A stretch of DNA of 25,715 bases from a virus, in the IMG/VR virus record IMGVR_UViG_3300023223_000446, positions 1 through 25,715 of that record, one strand, 5' to 3'. Under the pieces are notes generated by a model. That model did not search any database. It worked only from the letters and a program-made list of their open reading frames with translations, and had not been told where the DNA came from. A program made the translations under genes and the position numbers. Shown here piece after piece: positions 978-15,365 of the stretch; within the stretch, counting starts at the first letter, position 1, and the number at the start of each line of letters is the position of its first letter.

Positions 978-3134
978 CTATTCAAATGGTATTGTTATAC
1001 ATCCGCAATTAATTACATCTTCGGCCGCTGCCCCTGACTCGTGCGGCATAGTTAACCCATTAGAAAAAGCTTTACCAATCTCCCGTACTTCTCCGTCGGT
1101 GGCTGCGTGATCTTCTCTAGGATCGGTCGGGTTTTTAGAACTTATCCACATATGTTTAGACACCCCAAGACCTTCCATTGCATCGACACGGCCTTGTGTA
1201 AGTGCTTTATTAATTTCTGTTTTAGCAATATTCCGGGCATTCCGATTTGCGTTATTCATAATATCCCGTGCAGCTTGTGCAACTTTTCCGGCTGCCTCAT
1301 TATATGATTGTCCTGCGGTTATGGCATCGGCAATAATAGGTTTTATTTTCTTTTCCATCTTACGACGGATGGTTTCATTTAATCCCTGCAATTCAACGGA
1401 CCTGGTATTGATGGCTGCCAGTGCCCGAGGGTTACCAATGTCAAAACTAAGTTGCAGTTGTGAGGTAATGTTTCCAACACCGAGGGTATAACCTTCCGCA
1501 ATGAATGGCCTACTGACTTCGACAATACGTTCGTTAGCGTCTTTAAAATCGGGGAATATTTCATTTATGATATCAGGTGAAAGCTGTTTAATGGTCTTTG
1601 AATCATCGTCAATAGAGAATATACGTTCTAATATTTGTTGCCGTAATGGGTCTAAATACTCCTCAATTAATGCTTTAGCAAATCGTCCCTGGGCACGGGC
1701 TTTCTGTTTTTCGGTGCGCTTCCTTTCATTGTCGCCCCGAGTAGATTTTTCCTCTATAGATAATGACCAATAATCTGTTTTATCATTGTCAATTGTTTTA
1801 CTATTATTATCGGGTGTTGCTGCAGCATTTGAGGCCCCAATTTTTTGTAGCTCTAAAGGTAATCGATCCGGCTGTGCAGGAAACCCAAGATTTTGATTAG
1901 TGTTTACTTCGTCCGGGGTAAATCCTATTTTAATTAATCGCTCCGCAGTTTCCACCTTTATATCAAACTCCTCTTTTAATCCGTCAATTGCTTCCTTCCT
2001 AAACCTTGCGTGTTTACCGTCTAATCCTTCGGCGTCAAAAAAATCACTAAGTAAAGTGGTTTCAAATAATATCATTTTTGGAATAAGATTATAATTGTAT
2101 AACTGTTTTTCCTGTTCCTTGATATTACTTTTAATACTAGAATCCTCTAATATTTGTAACAGTGCTTTTGGAGTATTTAAAACCGTACATACTTCGTCAC
2201 GTGACCACCTTTTTTGAAATGGAAACTCCATATCTTTTTGACTCGCTGAAATTGCCTCAAGCTTTGAGCCTTTACCAAATACGCTAACGCTGTGGCTTTT
2301 ACGTAATCCACGATGTTTCTTTTCATAACGTAATTCCATTGCCGTGGCTTCGTCCTCTGTTATCTGCTGTTCAGTCGATATCTGTACTGTCGGCGTTGCA
2401 TCCCTTTGAAAAAAGTTATGATTAAATTGACTTGCTGCAAAATCGGTTTGTAATCCAAGCGATGCAGCTAGTAGCGGCCCCATACCCCGAAACTCATTAA
2501 AGGGATTGAAGTTTTTAAAATGTATAATATCAATCGGATCAATAAACTGTTCCTTTCCATTTGGAAGTAACCTTTTCCAGCCAATTAACTCGTCGGCTTT
2601 TACAATGTGTTGCATTCTATCAGGACTTAAAACTTTTATTCGCATGGGTTGCCCGTTCGCTCCCCTTAATTTTTGCCAGAAACATTCACCCCTTAAAGCC
2701 ATCCAAGTAATAAAAGAATCAAGTAGCCAAAATTTATTACCGGTAGGGCTAACAAATTCAAATAGACGCTGTGGAAAAACATCCGGTCTTTCCATTAGGT
2801 TATCACCGTCGAAGAAATCAAGTGGTACATGTGAGAAATTTAAACGCATAACTTCAATGCAAGAAAATACCCAGGGGTTTTGAGCATAGGCATTTTGTAG
2901 CCTTGCCGACGTTCCAAGGTCTTCACGACTTGCGAGGTTAAGAAATTTTAGATGTGCATCACCTGTACTCAGTACGGTATTAAAATTTGATATGGAACCA
3001 TCTGCAGCAAAGTTTAACCCTTTCTCGGTGAGGCCTTGCATTACTTTTCGGGTGACGGTTTCTGTTAGTGTGGTCGTTTTTTGTTGCTCCATTATCTTAG
3101 TATATCCGTTATCATAATTATCTAATATATTCAT
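978..3134 (-). CDS. Portal protein fused to a Mu F-like head morphogenesis domain
   Basis: At 718 residues this is about 250-300 longer than a typical HK97-type portal. Residues about 80-420 look like a portal: the NPWVFSCIEVM helix, a WxxxRGECFW segment, LSPDRMQ, DIIHFKNFNP and the FGKGSKLEAIS/KDMEF region. A charged linker follows. Residues about 560-718 resemble the Mu gpF/SPP1 gp7 minor head domain: NIAKTEINKALTQGR, MWISSKNPTDPREDHAATDGE and a terminal CGC motif. The portal forms the dodecameric DNA channel, and MuF proteins enter the head or assist assembly. The start overlaps the stop of the upstream LamG gene (TAATG), with GGGTGG 4 bases before it. The fusion appears intact, with no frameshift. 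Confidence 0.87.
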   Translation of the reverse strand: MNILDNYDNGYTKIMEQQKTTTLTETVTRKVMQGLTEKGLNFAADGSISNFNTVLSTGDAHLKFLNLASREDLGTSARLQNAYAQNPWVFSCIEVMRLNFSHVPLDFFDGDNLMERPDVFPQRLFEFVSPTGNKFWLLDSFITWMALRGECFWQKLRGANGQPMRIKVLSPDRMQHIVKADELIGWKRLLPNGKEQFIDPIDIIHFKNFNPFNEFRGMGPLLAASLGLQTDFAASQFNHNFFQRDATPTVQISTEQQITEDEATAMELRYEKKHRGLRKSHSVSVFGKGSKLEAISASQKDMEFPFQKRWSRDEVCTVLNTPKALLQILEDSSIKSNIKEQEKQLYNYNLIPKMILFETTLLSDFFDAEGLDGKHARFRKEAIDGLKEEFDIKVETAERLIKIGFTPDEVNTNQNLGFPAQPDRLPLELQKIGASNAAATPDNNSKTIDNDKTDYWSLSIEEKSTRGDNERKRTEKQKARAQGRFAKALIEEYLDPLRQQILERIFSIDDDSKTIKQLSPDIINEIFPDFKDANERIVEVSRPFIAEGYTLGVGNITSQLQLSFDIGNPRALAAINTRSVELQGLNETIRRKMEKKIKPIIADAITAGQSYNEAAGKVAQAARDIMNNANRNARNIAKTEINKALTQGRVDAMEGLGVSKHMWISSKNPTDPREDHAATDGEVREIGKAFSNGLTMPHESGAAAEDVINCGCITIPFE

Positions 3135-3820
3135 TATGCCACCCGCCTACGGAATTTTAAATCACTGTCACCGTAATCAGGTGAACCGTTTGGTGTACCG
3201 TTGAACCCTCCGACAATATCTATTACTGAACCGGCACCACCTGCAGCAACACCGCCGCCTTTTTCATTCATTCGCCAATTAGCAATAATACCCTCGTGTA
3301 TTCCATCCGTACCTTCACAACCAAACATATGTTTAGCCTCTGGTAATACAAGAGCACGATTATATATTCTTATATCCTCAACACGGGCCTTTACATCCCT
3401 CGTCGTGCTATCCGGATGGCGGCCAATTCCTATATGTTCATTTGCATCGTTTATGGTTCCCGTGTTTGTGTCCGAATCTTCCTCAACGCCATCAAGTAAA
3501 AGCCTTACCGTCGTACCATCCCAGGTCATACAAATATTATGTTTGACATCATTATTTGATAACACTGTAGTTCCTGTGAGAGTGGTTGTATGATCGCTTG
3601 TGGTTAATCTACAAACGGCCTCAAACGTCGAACCTCTAATGCCTATATGATAATCATCACCTGTAGAACCATTTGTTTTTGTCAACATGCGACCCCAATT
3701 CGTGCCAGCGTTAGCAGTAGGAAAAATCCAACCGCATAAGGTCATAGCAGAGAAACCACCAAGGGCGGCATTGTCTGCAACTTCAATGTATTTCGAATCC
3801 GAATCAATTTCCATTGACAT
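3134..3820 (-). CDS. LamG / concanavalin A-like lectin-fold protein
   Basis: This 228-residue protein has the LamG jellyroll pattern: an opening D-S-x-Y-I-E-V strand, MTLCGWIFPT, the central HNICMTWDGTTVRLLLDGV strand pair (about residues 93-111) and VEDIRIYNRALVLPEAKHMF (about 148-167). Such domains bind carbohydrate or decorate virion surfaces. An AAGGAT site precedes the ATG. The start could also be the second Met, two codons later. It lies between a fibre-like gene and the portal, so it is likely a virion appendage or capsid decoration; that role is inferred. Confidence 0.72.
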   Translation of the reverse strand: MSMEIDSDSKYIEVADNAALGGFSAMTLCGWIFPTANAGTNWGRMLTKTNGSTGDDYHIGIRGSTFEAVCRLTTSDHTTTLTGTTVLSNNDVKHNICMTWDGTTVRLLLDGVEEDSDTNTGTINDANEHIGIGRHPDSTTRDVKARVEDIRIYNRALVLPEAKHMFGCEGTDGIHEGIIANWRMNEKGGGVAAGGAGSVIDIVGGFNGTPNGSPDYGDSDLKFRRRVA

Positions 3821-10834: not shown

Positions 10835-11881
10835 ATGTCAAATGAAAATGAATTAGTTACGGTGGAAACCCCAATTGTAGGACCATTAACACCTTCGGCA
10901 GTAAAAGACCAAGTAAATAATATTCAATTGGTTATGCGTGACGTTATGAAAGACGGTGAACATTTTGGTAAAATCGACGGCCTTGGAGAAAAAAAGATTT
11001 TATTTAAAGCGGGCGCTGAAAAGCTTAGTTTAACATTCAGGTTGTTACCTAAATATGATATTCTCATGAGGGAGTCAAAAAACAGCCATCGTGAATATGA
11101 AATTTTATGCACCTTGGTTAACCCCTCCGGGCAGTTTATGGGTCAAGGCGTGGGCTTATGTAGTACAATGGAAAGTAAGTATCGGTATCGTAATGCAGCA
11201 CGTACATGCCCCGAATGTGGACAACCTGCGATTATAAAAGGTAAACACGAATGGGGTGGTGGTTGGCTTTGCTTTAAGAAAAAAGATGGTTGTGGTGCTA
11301 AATTTGAGGATGGTAGCGATTCTATAGAAAAGCAGCCTATTGGTAAGATTGAAAATGAGGATTTAGCAGACACGTATAATACAGTTTTAAAAATGGGTAA
11401 AAAACGGGCCTTTGTTGATGGTGTAATTTCTGCCACTGCAGCAAGTGATATTTTCTCACAGGATGTTGAGGATATTATTGACAATGAAAACTCTGCCTCC
11501 GGGAAAAGTACCGAAGATGCAACACAAAAGGAATCTGAAAATCAAAAAACTATTGATGGCCGTCACAGACTCGAAATAAAGCAGGGTTTATTTAAATTAG
11601 TTGGCGTTGCTCCGGGTGTTACTGCAACCGAACCCCAGGTAAAACTTATGCGGGAAAAATTACAAGATTTAACAAGGTGGGAAGATCCACAAACACAAGA
11701 AATACACGAGGGTGTAACAACCACAATCAATATGTCTGGTAAAAGATTAAGTATTGTAACCGGTATGATGCGCGAGGAGTTAAAAAGGGTTCCAATGCCG
11801 GGAGAGGTTCAACCAGAGCCACCAAAAAAACCAACCACAACGGTTACCGACGACGATTTAAAAGAAGTCGGTATCAAATAA
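10835..11881 (+). CDS. Phage zinc-ribbon protein, possible ssDNA-binding/annealing factor
   Basis: This 348-residue protein belongs to a phage type I recognise by pattern. It has an N-terminal helical VMRDVMKDGEHFGKI and KAGAEKLSLTFRL segment (about 33-70). A four-cysteine zinc ribbon follows (Cys125, Cys128, Cys146, Cys153; CPECG...CGAKF), then a conserved helix NTVLKMGKKRAFVDGV and ATAASDIF (about 181-207). A low-complexity linker leads to a C-terminal region rich in Pro/Thr. The overall layout resembles single-strand annealing proteins (Rad52/Erf-like), and the DnaQ-like gene beside it agrees, but the fold assignment is inference. Confidence 0.55.
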   Translation: MSNENELVTVETPIVGPLTPSAVKDQVNNIQLVMRDVMKDGEHFGKIDGLGEKKILFKAGAEKLSLTFRLLPKYDILMRESKNSHREYEILCTLVNPSGQFMGQGVGLCSTMESKYRYRNAARTCPECGQPAIIKGKHEWGGGWLCFKKKDGCGAKFEDGSDSIEKQPIGKIENEDLADTYNTVLKMGKKRAFVDGVISATAASDIFSQDVEDIIDNENSASGKSTEDATQKESENQKTIDGRHRLEIKQGLFKLVGVAPGVTATEPQVKLMREKLQDLTRWEDPQTQEIHEGVTTTINMSGKRLSIVTGMMREELKRVPMPGEVQPEPPKKPTTTVTDDDLKEVGIK

Positions 11882-12006
11882 TGCGCCCTCATGTGCGCGA
11901 AGCCTGGGCTAAATTTTTCTATCTATGGTTAGAGGTTTTTCAAATTCCTAGATTAATAAAATGGCTAGTTAAGGTTTTGCGGAAATATAATAATAGAAAT
12001 AAGTGA
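11881..12006 (+). CDS. Small basic protein, 41 residues
   Basis: The ATG overlaps the previous stop (TAATG) and the TGA overlaps the GTG start of the methyltransferase (GTGA), so it is stitched between two real genes. The product begins MRPHVREAWAKFFYLWLEVF and is aromatic and strongly basic at the C-terminus (RKYNNRNK). It could be an amphipathic membrane-associated or nucleic-acid-binding peptide. No family recognised. Confidence 0.45.
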   Translation: MRPHVREAWAKFFYLWLEVFQIPRLIKWLVKVLRKYNNRNK

Positions 12007-12770
12007 TAAAATTCGTTGAATTATTTGCCGGCATAGGCGGTTTTAGTTTAGGTTTTGAACGTACCGGAATGGAATGCGTCGGACATGTAGAAATAGATAA
12101 ATATGCACAAAAAGTATTAAAAAAACATTGGCCGGATGTACCACTTTACCCGGACGTTACTAAAATTAAAGGGGATGAATTTGGAAAAATCGACTTACTC
12201 TGTGGGGGGTTCCCATGTCAAGACGTTTCAATCGCTGGAAACAAAGAGGGCATTAATGCCCCGCGCACGGGTCTTTACTACGAAATTATTAGGGTTGCAA
12301 CCGTTTGCCGTCCTCGATGGATTGTCCTTGAAAACGTTGCAAACCTCCTTACTAGCGCCGAGTGGATGGGCGTCGTATTTGGAGAACTTGCCAAAATCGG
12401 GTATAATGTTGAGTGGGAAGTTATACGAGCGTACAGCTTCGGTTTTCCCCATACAAGACCCCGTATTTTCATTGTTGCCTACACCGATAAAATTACAAAT
12501 AGACTCGTCCAACGCCAGGGAGATAATCGGGAACAGGGAAATAGACAAAAAAGGTCGGTCTTGGGGCGCAACATTGCCAAGCGTAATATCAAACGAGACT
12601 GGTTTAAAATTGTTCGCAGAATTTGTGGAGTTAATAATGGGGTTCCCCCGAAGGTGGACCAAAATAAATTAAGATTAGAGTGTTTAGGAAATGCATTGAT
12701 ACCTCAAATTGCGGAGTTCATAGGAAATAAAATAATAGAGTCTGAAATAAACCTTGACAAATCAAAATAA
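12003..12770 (+). CDS. C5 cytosine DNA methyltransferase
   Basis: This 255-residue enzyme transfers a methyl group from S-adenosylmethionine to cytosine C5. Motif I is ELFAGIGGFSLG (6-17). Motif IV is GGFPCQDVS (68-76, catalytic Cys72), motif VI is ENV (110-112) and motif VIII is FPHTRPRIFIVAY (148-160). A short target-recognition region follows, and motifs IX/X are RLECLGNALIPQ (224-235). The motifs are complete although the protein is shorter than bacterial Dcm-type enzymes. It starts with GTG overlapping the previous stop. No restriction endonuclease is adjacent, so it is an orphan enzyme, probably shielding phage DNA. A second open frame overlaps it at +1. Confidence 0.93.
   Translation: MIKFVELFAGIGGFSLGFERTGMECVGHVEIDKYAQKVLKKHWPDVPLYPDVTKIKGDEFGKIDLLCGGFPCQDVSIAGNKEGINAPRTGLYYEIIRVATVCRPRWIVLENVANLLTSAEWMGVVFGELAKIGYNVEWEVIRAYSFGFPHTRPRIFIVAYTDKITNRLVQRQGDNREQGNRQKRSVLGRNIAKRNIKRDWFKIVRRICGVNNGVPPKVDQNKLRLECLGNALIPQIAEFIGNKIIESEINLDKSK
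12256..12672 (+). CDS. Overlapping +1-frame ORF inside the methyltransferase gene (possible dual coding)
   Basis: In the +1 frame relative to the methyltransferase, an ATG at 12256 with AGAGGG five bases upstream opens a 138-residue frame. It stays open upstream to at least 12136. The product contains SLKTLQTSLL (24-33), LPKSGIMLSGKLYE (45-58), SLLPTP (72-77), GATLPSV (104-110) and FVELIMGFPRRWT (123-135). I recall this order from phage proteins annotated as methyltransferase fragments, in the form WKTSQTSLL / WPRSGMMRNGKLY / LLPTP / FVEWMMGFPxGWTD. Those proteins can begin with a frame-shifted reading of motif IV; the same reading here, VGGSHVKTFQS, is upstream of the ATG. Translation is unproven. 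Confidence 0.45.
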   Translation: MPRARVFTTKLLGLQPFAVLDGLSLKTLQTSLLAPSGWASYLENLPKSGIMLSGKLYERTASVFPIQDPVFSLLPTPIKLQIDSSNAREIIGNREIDKKGRSWGATLPSVISNETGLKLFAEFVELIMGFPRRWTKIN

Positions 12771-12783
12771 TTGTTTTTATTAC
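12754..12783 (+). promoter_or_regulatory. Candidate internal promoter before the replication gene
   Basis: TTGACA at 12754-12759 (inside the methyltransferase end), an 18-base spacer, then TATTAC at 12778-12783 (4 of 6). The predicted start is about 12789-12790, which is exactly the 5' edge of the long helix described next. The same C-TTGACA string occurs at both promoters of the divergent region. Confidence 0.5.
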
Positions 12784-12788
12784 GGTTA

Positions 12789-12896
12789 AGCATGATAGTT
12801 ATTATTACATTTCTTCTGTTATTTACTGGGCTGACAGGCCATCCCGTTACAAATGTAATTAGGTGCGACTATCATGCTGATAATTCCTGTCAGTCC
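12789..12896 (+). ncRNA. Predicted pseudoknotted leader RNA upstream of the replication gene
   Basis: Three stacked helices are visible. P1 pairs 12789-12800 with 12867-12878 (12 bp, one G-U). P2 pairs 12804-12812 with 12851-12859 (9 bp). P3 pairs 12825-12830 with 12843-12847 (5 bp, one bulge). The apical loop 12831-12842 contains CUGACAGG, perfectly complementary to CCUGUCAG at 12886-12893, which would form an 8 bp pseudoknot. An AGGUG ribosome-binding-like site lies in the P1/P2 internal loop, and an AUG (12874) lies inside the 3' strand of P1. It does not match a riboswitch or ribozyme class I can name. A regulatory role for the gene starting at 12910 (or 12874) is inferred. Confidence 0.6.
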
Positions 12897-12909
12897 TTTC
12901 ATATATATA

Positions 12910-13884
12910 ATGGCGCTTAGAAATCAACCTTATTTACCGCTTTTTGTTCAAGATTATTTAACGGATGAAAAATTAAATGAATGTTCACCGGCAACTCAAG
13001 GGGTTTATATTAAAATTATGTGTTTGATGCACAAATCACAGGAATATGGTGTTATTTTGCTCAAGCAAAAACACAAGCAAAACGAAAGCGACCACTTCAA
13101 AGGGCTTGCTAAGCAATTTAAAAAACACCTCACATTTGATCAAATTGAAATAGAATCGGCAATACGTGAATTGGTTTTAGAGGGCGTTTGCGACATGAAT
13201 GTTGATGGTAATCTATCACAAAAAAGAATGATAAAGGATTGTAAAATAAGCACTTTGCGTGCTGAGAATGGATCCAAAGGTGGTAAGGCTACCAAGAATT
13301 TAGCTTCTAATTTTGCTACAGCAAAAACACCACCAAACTCTGAAAATGAATATGAATATGAAATTGAAGATGAAAATAAAGATAATAAAAAAGAAACAAT
13401 AATGTATAATGGTGCCTCACTTGATCAACACCTAGCTTTTAATGCCTTTATTGGTTTATATCCTAATAGGTTTGGCCAAACAGCCACGAAAAAGATATTC
13501 CTAGAGCTAATAATTAATCAAGAAAAATGGGATAACCTGTTGTTATGCCTTAACAACTACAAGAAAACGGAGCATTTCCGCAACAACAAAATATTGAACT
13601 TAGAGAAATTTATGATTAATTACAATGATTACCGGGTTCCGGACCAGAACCAAAGTGCTGCAAATAAGGCCGCACAGGCCAAAAGTCAATCCCGGTACTC
13701 TACTACCCCGGAAAAACCGGATTTAAGGCCTGAGATCACTAAAAACTGCATAGAAACTGATTGTGGCAAAGAATTTGAGACCCGTGATCCGGATAATATT
13801 GACCGGTGCCGGGATTGTTTTAAAATATTTTATGATAACTGGGTGAAAAACTTTAATAAAAATAAGGTGGTAAATAATGACTAG
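12910..13884 (+). CDS. Replication protein, DnaD/replisome-organizer-like
   Basis: The protein has 324 residues from ATG 12910. The N-terminus ALRNQPYLPLFVQDYL with a following winged-helix region (about 1-110) matches the DUF1376/phage replication-initiator type. An RAENGSKGGKA segment (about 116-126) and an acidic low-complexity linker (ENEYEYEIEDENKDN) follow. A second helical domain (about 165-245) comes next, then a C-terminal four-cysteine zinc knuckle (CIETDCGKEFE...CRDC). It probably binds the origin or loads helicase. The in-frame ATG at 12874 has AGGTG upstream but would add 12 non-conserved residues, so 12910 is preferred, although no Shine-Dalgarno precedes it. It follows the pseudoknotted leader. 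Confidence 0.72.
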   Translation: MALRNQPYLPLFVQDYLTDEKLNECSPATQGVYIKIMCLMHKSQEYGVILLKQKHKQNESDHFKGLAKQFKKHLTFDQIEIESAIRELVLEGVCDMNVDGNLSQKRMIKDCKISTLRAENGSKGGKATKNLASNFATAKTPPNSENEYEYEIEDENKDNKKETIMYNGASLDQHLAFNAFIGLYPNRFGQTATKKIFLELIINQEKWDNLLLCLNNYKKTEHFRNNKILNLEKFMINYNDYRVPDQNQSAANKAAQAKSQSRYSTTPEKPDLRPEITKNCIETDCGKEFETRDPDNIDRCRDCFKIFYDNWVKNFNKNKVVNND

Positions 13885-14983: not shown

Positions 14984-14989
14984 TTAAAT

Positions 14990-15060
14990 AGCGATATGGT
15001 GAAGTGGTATCACGTCTGCCTCCAAATCAGAACTCAGGGGTTCGATTCCTCTTGTCGCTG
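14990..15060 (+). tRNA. trnW: tRNA-Trp (anticodon CCA)
   Basis: All four arms can be drawn. The acceptor AGCGATA pairs with TGTCGCT (one G-T). The D arm is GTGA/TCAC with GG in the loop. The anticodon stem is TCTGC/TCAGA with a C-T mismatch next to the loop CTCCAAA, the anticodon CCA being at 15022-15024. The T arm is AGGGG/CCTCT with loop TTCGATT. The variable loop is 4 bases and the discriminator base is G. CCA is not encoded. The length is 71 bases. It lies within the plus-strand early operon. Confidence 0.85.
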
Positions 15061-15071
15061 AAAAAAATAAT

Positions 15072-15365
15072 ATGGAAATATTACACTTAACACTTAAAAA
15101 ACGATGGTTCGATATGGTTTTATACGACGACAAGCGTGACGAGTACAGGGACATAAAACCATACTGGACAACCCGTCTTTGTGTTAATTCTAAAAAATTA
15201 AAATATACCCACATTAAATTTACAAATGGTTACGGCATAACCCGCCCCTGTTTTGTAATTAAATTAAAGGAAATTCTTATTGGTATTGGAAATCCCAAAT
15301 GGGGTGCACCGGTATTGAAAGATGTTTATATTTTAAAACTCGGTGATATTATCGCCACTAACTAA
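15072..15365 (+). CDS. ASCH-like domain protein, 97 residues
   Basis: The N-terminus MEILHLTLKKRWFDMVLYDD with KRDEYRDIKPYW (about 21-33) matches small ASCH/PUA-like phage proteins, in which this segment forms the nucleic-acid-binding barrel edge. The middle KLKYTHIKFTNGYG and the end DVYILKLGDIIAT fit the same all-beta fold. Such proteins are thought to bind RNA or modified bases. It starts 11 bases after the tRNA with no clear Shine-Dalgarno. Confidence 0.65.
   Translation: MEILHLTLKKRWFDMVLYDDKRDEYRDIKPYWTTRLCVNSKKLKYTHIKFTNGYGITRPCFVIKLKEILIGIGNPKWGAPVLKDVYILKLGDIIATN

Follow-up and report, generated by a model that had tools for sequence, protein, structure and literature searches.

The window analysed here, the whole 25,715-base stretch of DNA, is an IMG/VR virus record that belongs to a tailed phage, as judged by its terminase and portal genes. 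Its rightward genes include those for an exonuclease, a phrog_10048 protein, a cytosine methyltransferase and a DnaD-like replication protein (12910-13884, + strand). The DnaD-like protein gives weak PHROG matches to a primosomal protein and a replisome organizer. It begins MALRNQPYLPL, and this start is kept in relatives: profile searches found MALR[D/N]QPYLPL[Y/F]VQD to be common to over 80 of them. A preliminary description of the locus had drawn attention to a second in-frame ATG at 12874 with an AGGTG site (12862-12876, + strand). Both are present, but this non-conserved possible alternative is ruled out as the true start because relatives begin at MALR, which corresponds to ATG 12910. 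SD-like sequences precede 19 of the 23 rightward genes of the record; ATG 12910 has no Shine-Dalgarno (SD) sequence, and none resembling one is found before 62 of 86 DnaD-like family genes. Since, in addition, the upstream gene stops at -12 to +15 of the dnaD-like start in 37 of the 66 relatives that do not belong to the leader-bearing set described below, gene arrangement indicates that the family is usually translated by coupling.

Elsewhere in the early region, a tRNA-Trp (CCA) gene occupies 14989-15061, and an imperfect 17-bp inverted repeat, GTTCGATATGGTTTTAT / ATAAAACCATACTGGAC, lies just downstream of it (about 15051-15170). The first 50 residues of the methyltransferase (12003-12161) are 80% identical to those encoded at 3001-3159 of locus L009. 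No other window protein matches L009, which suggests, from sequence comparison, that the methyltransferase moves independently of the other window genes; its relatives have nothing in common with the window beyond the methyltransferase itself.

The gap before the replication gene holds a 108-nt element. A check of 12786-12920 found every pairing of the preliminary description in place (all on the + strand). Helix A (P1) joins 12789-12800, close to the predicted RNA start, to 12867-12878 through 12 bp, 11 of them Watson-Crick and one T.G. Nested in A and around the 5' strand of helix B, helix P2 pairs 12804-12812 with 12851-12859 (9/9 pairs), and helix P3 pairs 12825-12830 with 12843-12847 (5 bp and one bulge). 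The pseudoknot-forming loop pairing, CTGACAGG (12831-12838) with CCTGTCAG (12886-12893), holds at 8/8 positions but had been given too short a length: the full helix B is 12828-12838/12886-12896, 11 bp including one G.U, with 12831-12838 as its core. Because GGG 12828-12830 is common to P3 and the long form of B, long B competes with three GC pairs of P3, which is compatible only with the 8-bp core; the four pairings are thus mutually compatible, as had been claimed, for the core but not for long B. Read from the pairing, the strand order along the RNA is A5, B5, A3, B3, that of an H-type pseudoknot. The 3' strand of B ends 13 nt before ATG 12910 and is followed by a U/A-rich tail, TTTCATATATATA (12897-12909).

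Nested folding of 12770-12910 gives -28.4 kcal/mol (z -1.5, 20/200 shuffles as good) and chooses long B, not A. Taken alone this test is unimpressive, since z is only -1.5 and ordinary folding ignores pseudoknots; for the latter reason interleaved helix pairs were scored directly. The A+B pair then scores -44.7, and no other 130-nt window on either strand of the record does better; the runner-up independent interleaved pair reaches -36.2. The nested fold of A, P2 and P3 amounts to about -21, and B adds -17 to -23.5. With the usual pseudoknot penalty taken as about 9-10, summed helix energies would put the knot below the nested optimum, although all knot energies are estimates.

A feature absent from the preliminary description is a leader ORF of 42 codons (MIVIITFLLLFTGLTGHPVTNVIRCDYHADNSCQSFHIYNGA, then stop; 12792-12920, + strand). 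Its ATG lies inside helix A, its frame runs through the fold, and it overlaps ATG 12910, with its stop 11 nt inside the dnaD-like gene. It has no SD and starts at about +4 of the predicted RNA; its codon usage is neutral, so that translation is neither supported nor refuted.

Sequence searches of phages and plasmids turned up no relative of the leader, so the search of phage genomes proposed in the preliminary description came back empty; the leader also matches no Rfam family. The sole match in an Rfam 15 scan of the window at the gathering threshold is a tRNA, and no Rfam 15 family was found in 13 relative loci. Exact inverted-repeat pattern searches of viral contigs returned 106 matches, about chance level, and a second such search none; concatenated leaders did not match known phages. 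The DnaD-like and terminase proteins, used as single-sequence queries, and the family of the gene at 10835 gave no useful relatives; these were obtained by profile searches with an alignment of the DnaD-like protein. Prophage copies appear to be rare, since 395 Bacteroidota genomes gave only one match.

What relatives share is the topology. Interleaved helices recur in front of dnaD-like genes with an upstream gap of at least about 90 bases, and the order A5-B5-A3-B3 occurs in at least 20 of 83 dnaD-like loci, either before dnaD itself or before a gene that precedes it. The leaders of this set are unrelated to one another in sequence, as in L229 (TGTAATCATAAA/TTTATGATTACA and TTGCCCGTGCAG/CTGCACGGGCAA), L330 (TAACCGGCAAG/CTTGCCGGTTA and TACCCAGT/ACTGGGTA) and L362 (TGCAAACAGT/ACTGTTTGCA and TACCCCATTGGAT/ATCTGGTGGGGTA). 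The elements measure about 105-115 nt and have long helices; A3 and B3 lie 0-30 nt apart in nearly all, and the end of B3 is 10-25 nt from the first start codon. Scores of -33 kcal/mol or lower are reached by 12/24 gapped dnaD loci and by 7/960 shuffles (0.7%), as well as by 9/110 AT-rich intergenic controls, several of which visibly contain the same element before another gene. When loci are classified by their top two helices, all long helices are enriched, the interleaved arrangement most (8/24 vs 8.5% in shuffles). When 738 kb of AT-rich loci were scanned without regard to start codons, 25 non-redundant strong matches emerged, 10 of which, including the two best, have a start codon 8-40 nt later (background 15%, p 0.002). 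The scoring thresholds were fixed after the first examples had been seen. Column-wise covariation cannot be scored because the class is defined by topology and its leaders share no alignable sequence. The recurrence of the topology upstream of homologous genes with different sequence nevertheless bears out the original reading of a pseudoknotted leader RNA before a replication gene.

Two further properties are enriched in these leaders. The first is a through-ORF: its ATG lies between 2 nt upstream and about 35 nt downstream of the point where A begins, its frame is open through the fold and its stop is 1-14 nt inside the next gene. Through-ORFs are present in 13/20 leaders, against 3.3 expected from shuffles, 4/20 on the antisense strand and 25 of the 129 intergenic regions taken as controls (Fisher p 7e-5). 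They are not universal, since 7/20 leaders of the dnaD set have none, and L134 and L180 combine the knot with an ordinary SD and no through-ORF. The second property is a run of U directly after B3 (6.3/9 bases vs 2.4/9 at the same place in other relatives used as controls, p 1e-9). Most relatives show a GC-rich stem with an immediate U-run; the window tail, with 5 T in 9 (TTTCATATA), is a weak counterpart, and L314, L134, L180 and L200 lack the run.

The preliminary description had also placed a promoter aimed at the first base of P1, a claim that is weak in the window but clear in relatives. The possible sigma-70-type promoter of the window (12754-12784, + strand) consists of TTGACA at 12754-12759, a 19-bp spacer and TATTAC; its -10 element matches at 4/6 positions, and a consensus scan of the window (at least 9/12) does not list the pair. 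In L134, L180 and L200, TTGACA is followed after 17 bp by TATAAA, TATGAT and TATTAT, respectively, and helix A begins 5-8 nt further on; in L366, helix A follows a TATATTTG element after 4 nt. The predicted RNA start is therefore at or near A5 in all four. Scans for an antisense consensus sigma-70 promoter against the leader (at least 9/12 and at least 10/12) revealed none, which leaves antisense RNA control without promoter evidence.

Other phage genes (HNH-type, phrog_10048) are likewise preceded by this fold and by a good promoter directed at A5. Homologous pseudoknot leaders with strong promoters stand before different genes in L180 (3400-3600, reverse strand; the following gene is HNH-like as read from its translation) and L200 (6960-7180). 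They have in common the promoter, TGGCAAAC.../GTTTGCCAAAAC and AAGGAT, whereas helix B has been replaced with its pairing kept. A further helix, ATTAGTG/CACTAAT in one and TTGTTTTTGA/TCAAAAACAA in the other, has likewise been replaced with pairing kept. The leader of L134 (4781-4943) has a 20-bp helix B, a TTGACA-17-TATAAA promoter and an operator-like dyad, and precedes a phrog_10048 gene related to the window gene 10835-11881. L203 and L204 share 99% identity that starts at the TATATTTG promoter element, about 150 bases upstream of dnaD, and have unrelated sequence before it; since identity begins at this element, leader and gene may move as one recombination module.

The structure class is well supported, whereas its mechanism is inferred. 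Topology, position, strand and the enrichments of through-ORFs and U-runs are all read from sequence. On this basis a cis-acting 5' leader RNA that gates the replication gene through a leader-ORF-coupled pseudoknot switch is proposed tentatively, with doubt slightly outweighing belief. With A and B formed, the start of the leader ORF would be shut and B would block the downstream gene; in most relatives B and its U-run would in addition resemble an intrinsic terminator. A ribosome on the leader ORF would melt A and B, letting RNA polymerase continue, and at the overlapping stop it would be handed over to the dnaD-like start, which by itself is presumed unable to recruit ribosomes by Shine-Dalgarno pairing. 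Several observations count against this switch: the window leader ORF has no SD, the U-tract and promoter of the window are weak, and the ORF is not universal. Furthermore, the window leader is without a close homologue in the collections searched, so no direct compensatory changes are available for its own helices.

A transcription attenuator in which the peptide plays no role is unlikely, though not to be dismissed. Here B and the U-run would terminate transcription intrinsically, and the loop of this terminator (A3) would pair with A5, the 5' end of the same RNA; A would compete with B, and an antisense RNA, a protein or the speed of RNA polymerase would decide the outcome. The U-run that immediately follows B3 in most leaders of the dnaD group fits this, as do L308, L320, L226 and L340, where B is a compact terminator-like hairpin with A3 as its loop. 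The poor tail of the window and the four leaders without a U-run do not, and neither do the absence of a visible antisense promoter and the enrichment of through-ORFs.

Protection of the 5' end, or presentation of the start to ribosomes, seems improbable. A coaxial A-B stack would bury the 5' end and resist decay while keeping the start region open, and any sequence would suffice, in keeping with the lack of sequence conservation. The position of A5, which coincides with the predicted RNA start or lies near it in L134, L180, L200 and L366, agrees with this. So does B3, which ends where the ribosome footprint begins and directly adjoins the SD in L134, L180 and L200. Such a role, however, needs neither through-ORF nor U-run, and a plain hairpin would be enough.

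Quite improbable is an autogenous translational operator of the T4 gene 32 kind, with the downstream DNA-binding protein binding the knot and blocking its own start. The window does offer a phage replication gene, a 5' pseudoknot and an A/U-rich stretch from knot to AUG, and T4 gp32 accepts differing RNA sequences (PMC535899, PMC3014915). Yet the same architecture stands before unrelated genes, such as the HNH-type and phrog_10048 genes, and through-ORF and U-run are left unexplained.

Inverted repeats acting at the DNA level (origin, operators or att sites) are scarcely credible despite the nearby replication gene and the perfect dyads: interleaved dyads cannot both form cruciforms, position is strict relative to start codons, and under symmetric scoring G.U pairs exceed A.C on the sense strand (36 vs 9). 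This excess, pointing to pairing in the sense-strand RNA, carries some bias, the leaders having first been picked with a G.U-permitting score; together with the topology it led to rejection of DNA-level dyads. Chance, for which only the nested-fold z of -1.5 speaks, is just as hard to credit, because A+B is the best interleaved arrangement of the 25.7-kb record and the topology recurs in relatives, in line with the original claim that the pairings go beyond chance.

The gated-start switch can be compared with three known kinds of system. In pT181-type and amino-acid attenuators, the leader of a rep gene or operon carries a helix resembling a terminator, and a helix upstream competes with it. 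The phage leaders are similar in this respect, but their competing strand pairs with the terminator loop, not with an arm, and no antisense RNA or regulatory codons have been identified in them.

Among phages the closest analogue is the pseudoknot of T4 gene 32, likewise an H-type knot on the 5' side of a gene for DNA metabolism whose start region is A/U-rich. The T4 knot is about 28 nt long and lies about 67 nt upstream of the AUG (PMC535899, PMC3014915), whereas the phage leaders measure about 105-115 nt, have long helices 10-25 nt from the AUG, precede various genes and contain a through-ORF. In the T4 pattern the knot of about 28 nt is compact, and beyond it more than 40 nt of unstructured UUAAA repeats include the ribosome-binding site; the window, with a 108-nt element and a 13-nt spacer, does not show this pattern. 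Membership is not claimed because size, spacing and gene differ.

Like repY-repZ (repB-repA) of IncI/IncB/IncK plasmids, the locus combines a replication-initiator gene with a short leader ORF overlapping its start. The leader ORF of ColIb-P9 extends from -77 to +12 (29 codons) and ends 12 nt inside the rep gene as annotated; that of the window extends from -118 to +11 (42 codons). In I-complex plasmids rep expression needs leader translation (PMC10286972), and in repY-repZ, as far as the title of Asano and Mizobuchi (1998, cited in PMC10724649) indicates, a loop-to-downstream pseudoknot acts as a switch. Two features of that system are met: overlap of the leader ORF with the rep start (12792-12920 and 13/20 leaders) and a loop paired just upstream of this start (B, 13 nt before the ATG, as sequence pairing without probing data). 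The UUGGCG target loop is absent in the window, whose loop is CUGACAGG; ColIb-P9 has TTGGCG at -130. The phage leaders further differ in having A3 and B3 close together in nearly all cases, a U-run after B3 in relatives, a gene that encodes a DnaD-like protein, and no antisense RNA promoter that could be seen. The logic is thus one resembling that of repY/repZ by analogy; membership is not claimed, because the UUGGCG loop is missing and there was no sign of an antisense RNA.

Within the open-access literature searched, this looks like an undescribed, shape-only switch on the start of a replication gene, reused by phages. The same device stands before the replication genes of many uncultivated phages, with its letters replaced and its topology kept. 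Whether the leaders amount to a widespread, undescribed class of phage regulatory RNA seems evenly balanced. Such a class would be defined by its topology of 5'-terminal interleaved helices, often with a coupled leader ORF and a terminator-like second helix. It would occur in about a quarter of DnaD-like operons and before other phage genes, and be invisible to homology-based RNA discovery as its sequence turns over completely. If true, it would be a general phage gene-control device unseen by sequence-profile RNA searches, and it would tie phage replication control to the leader-peptide and pseudoknot logic of plasmids.
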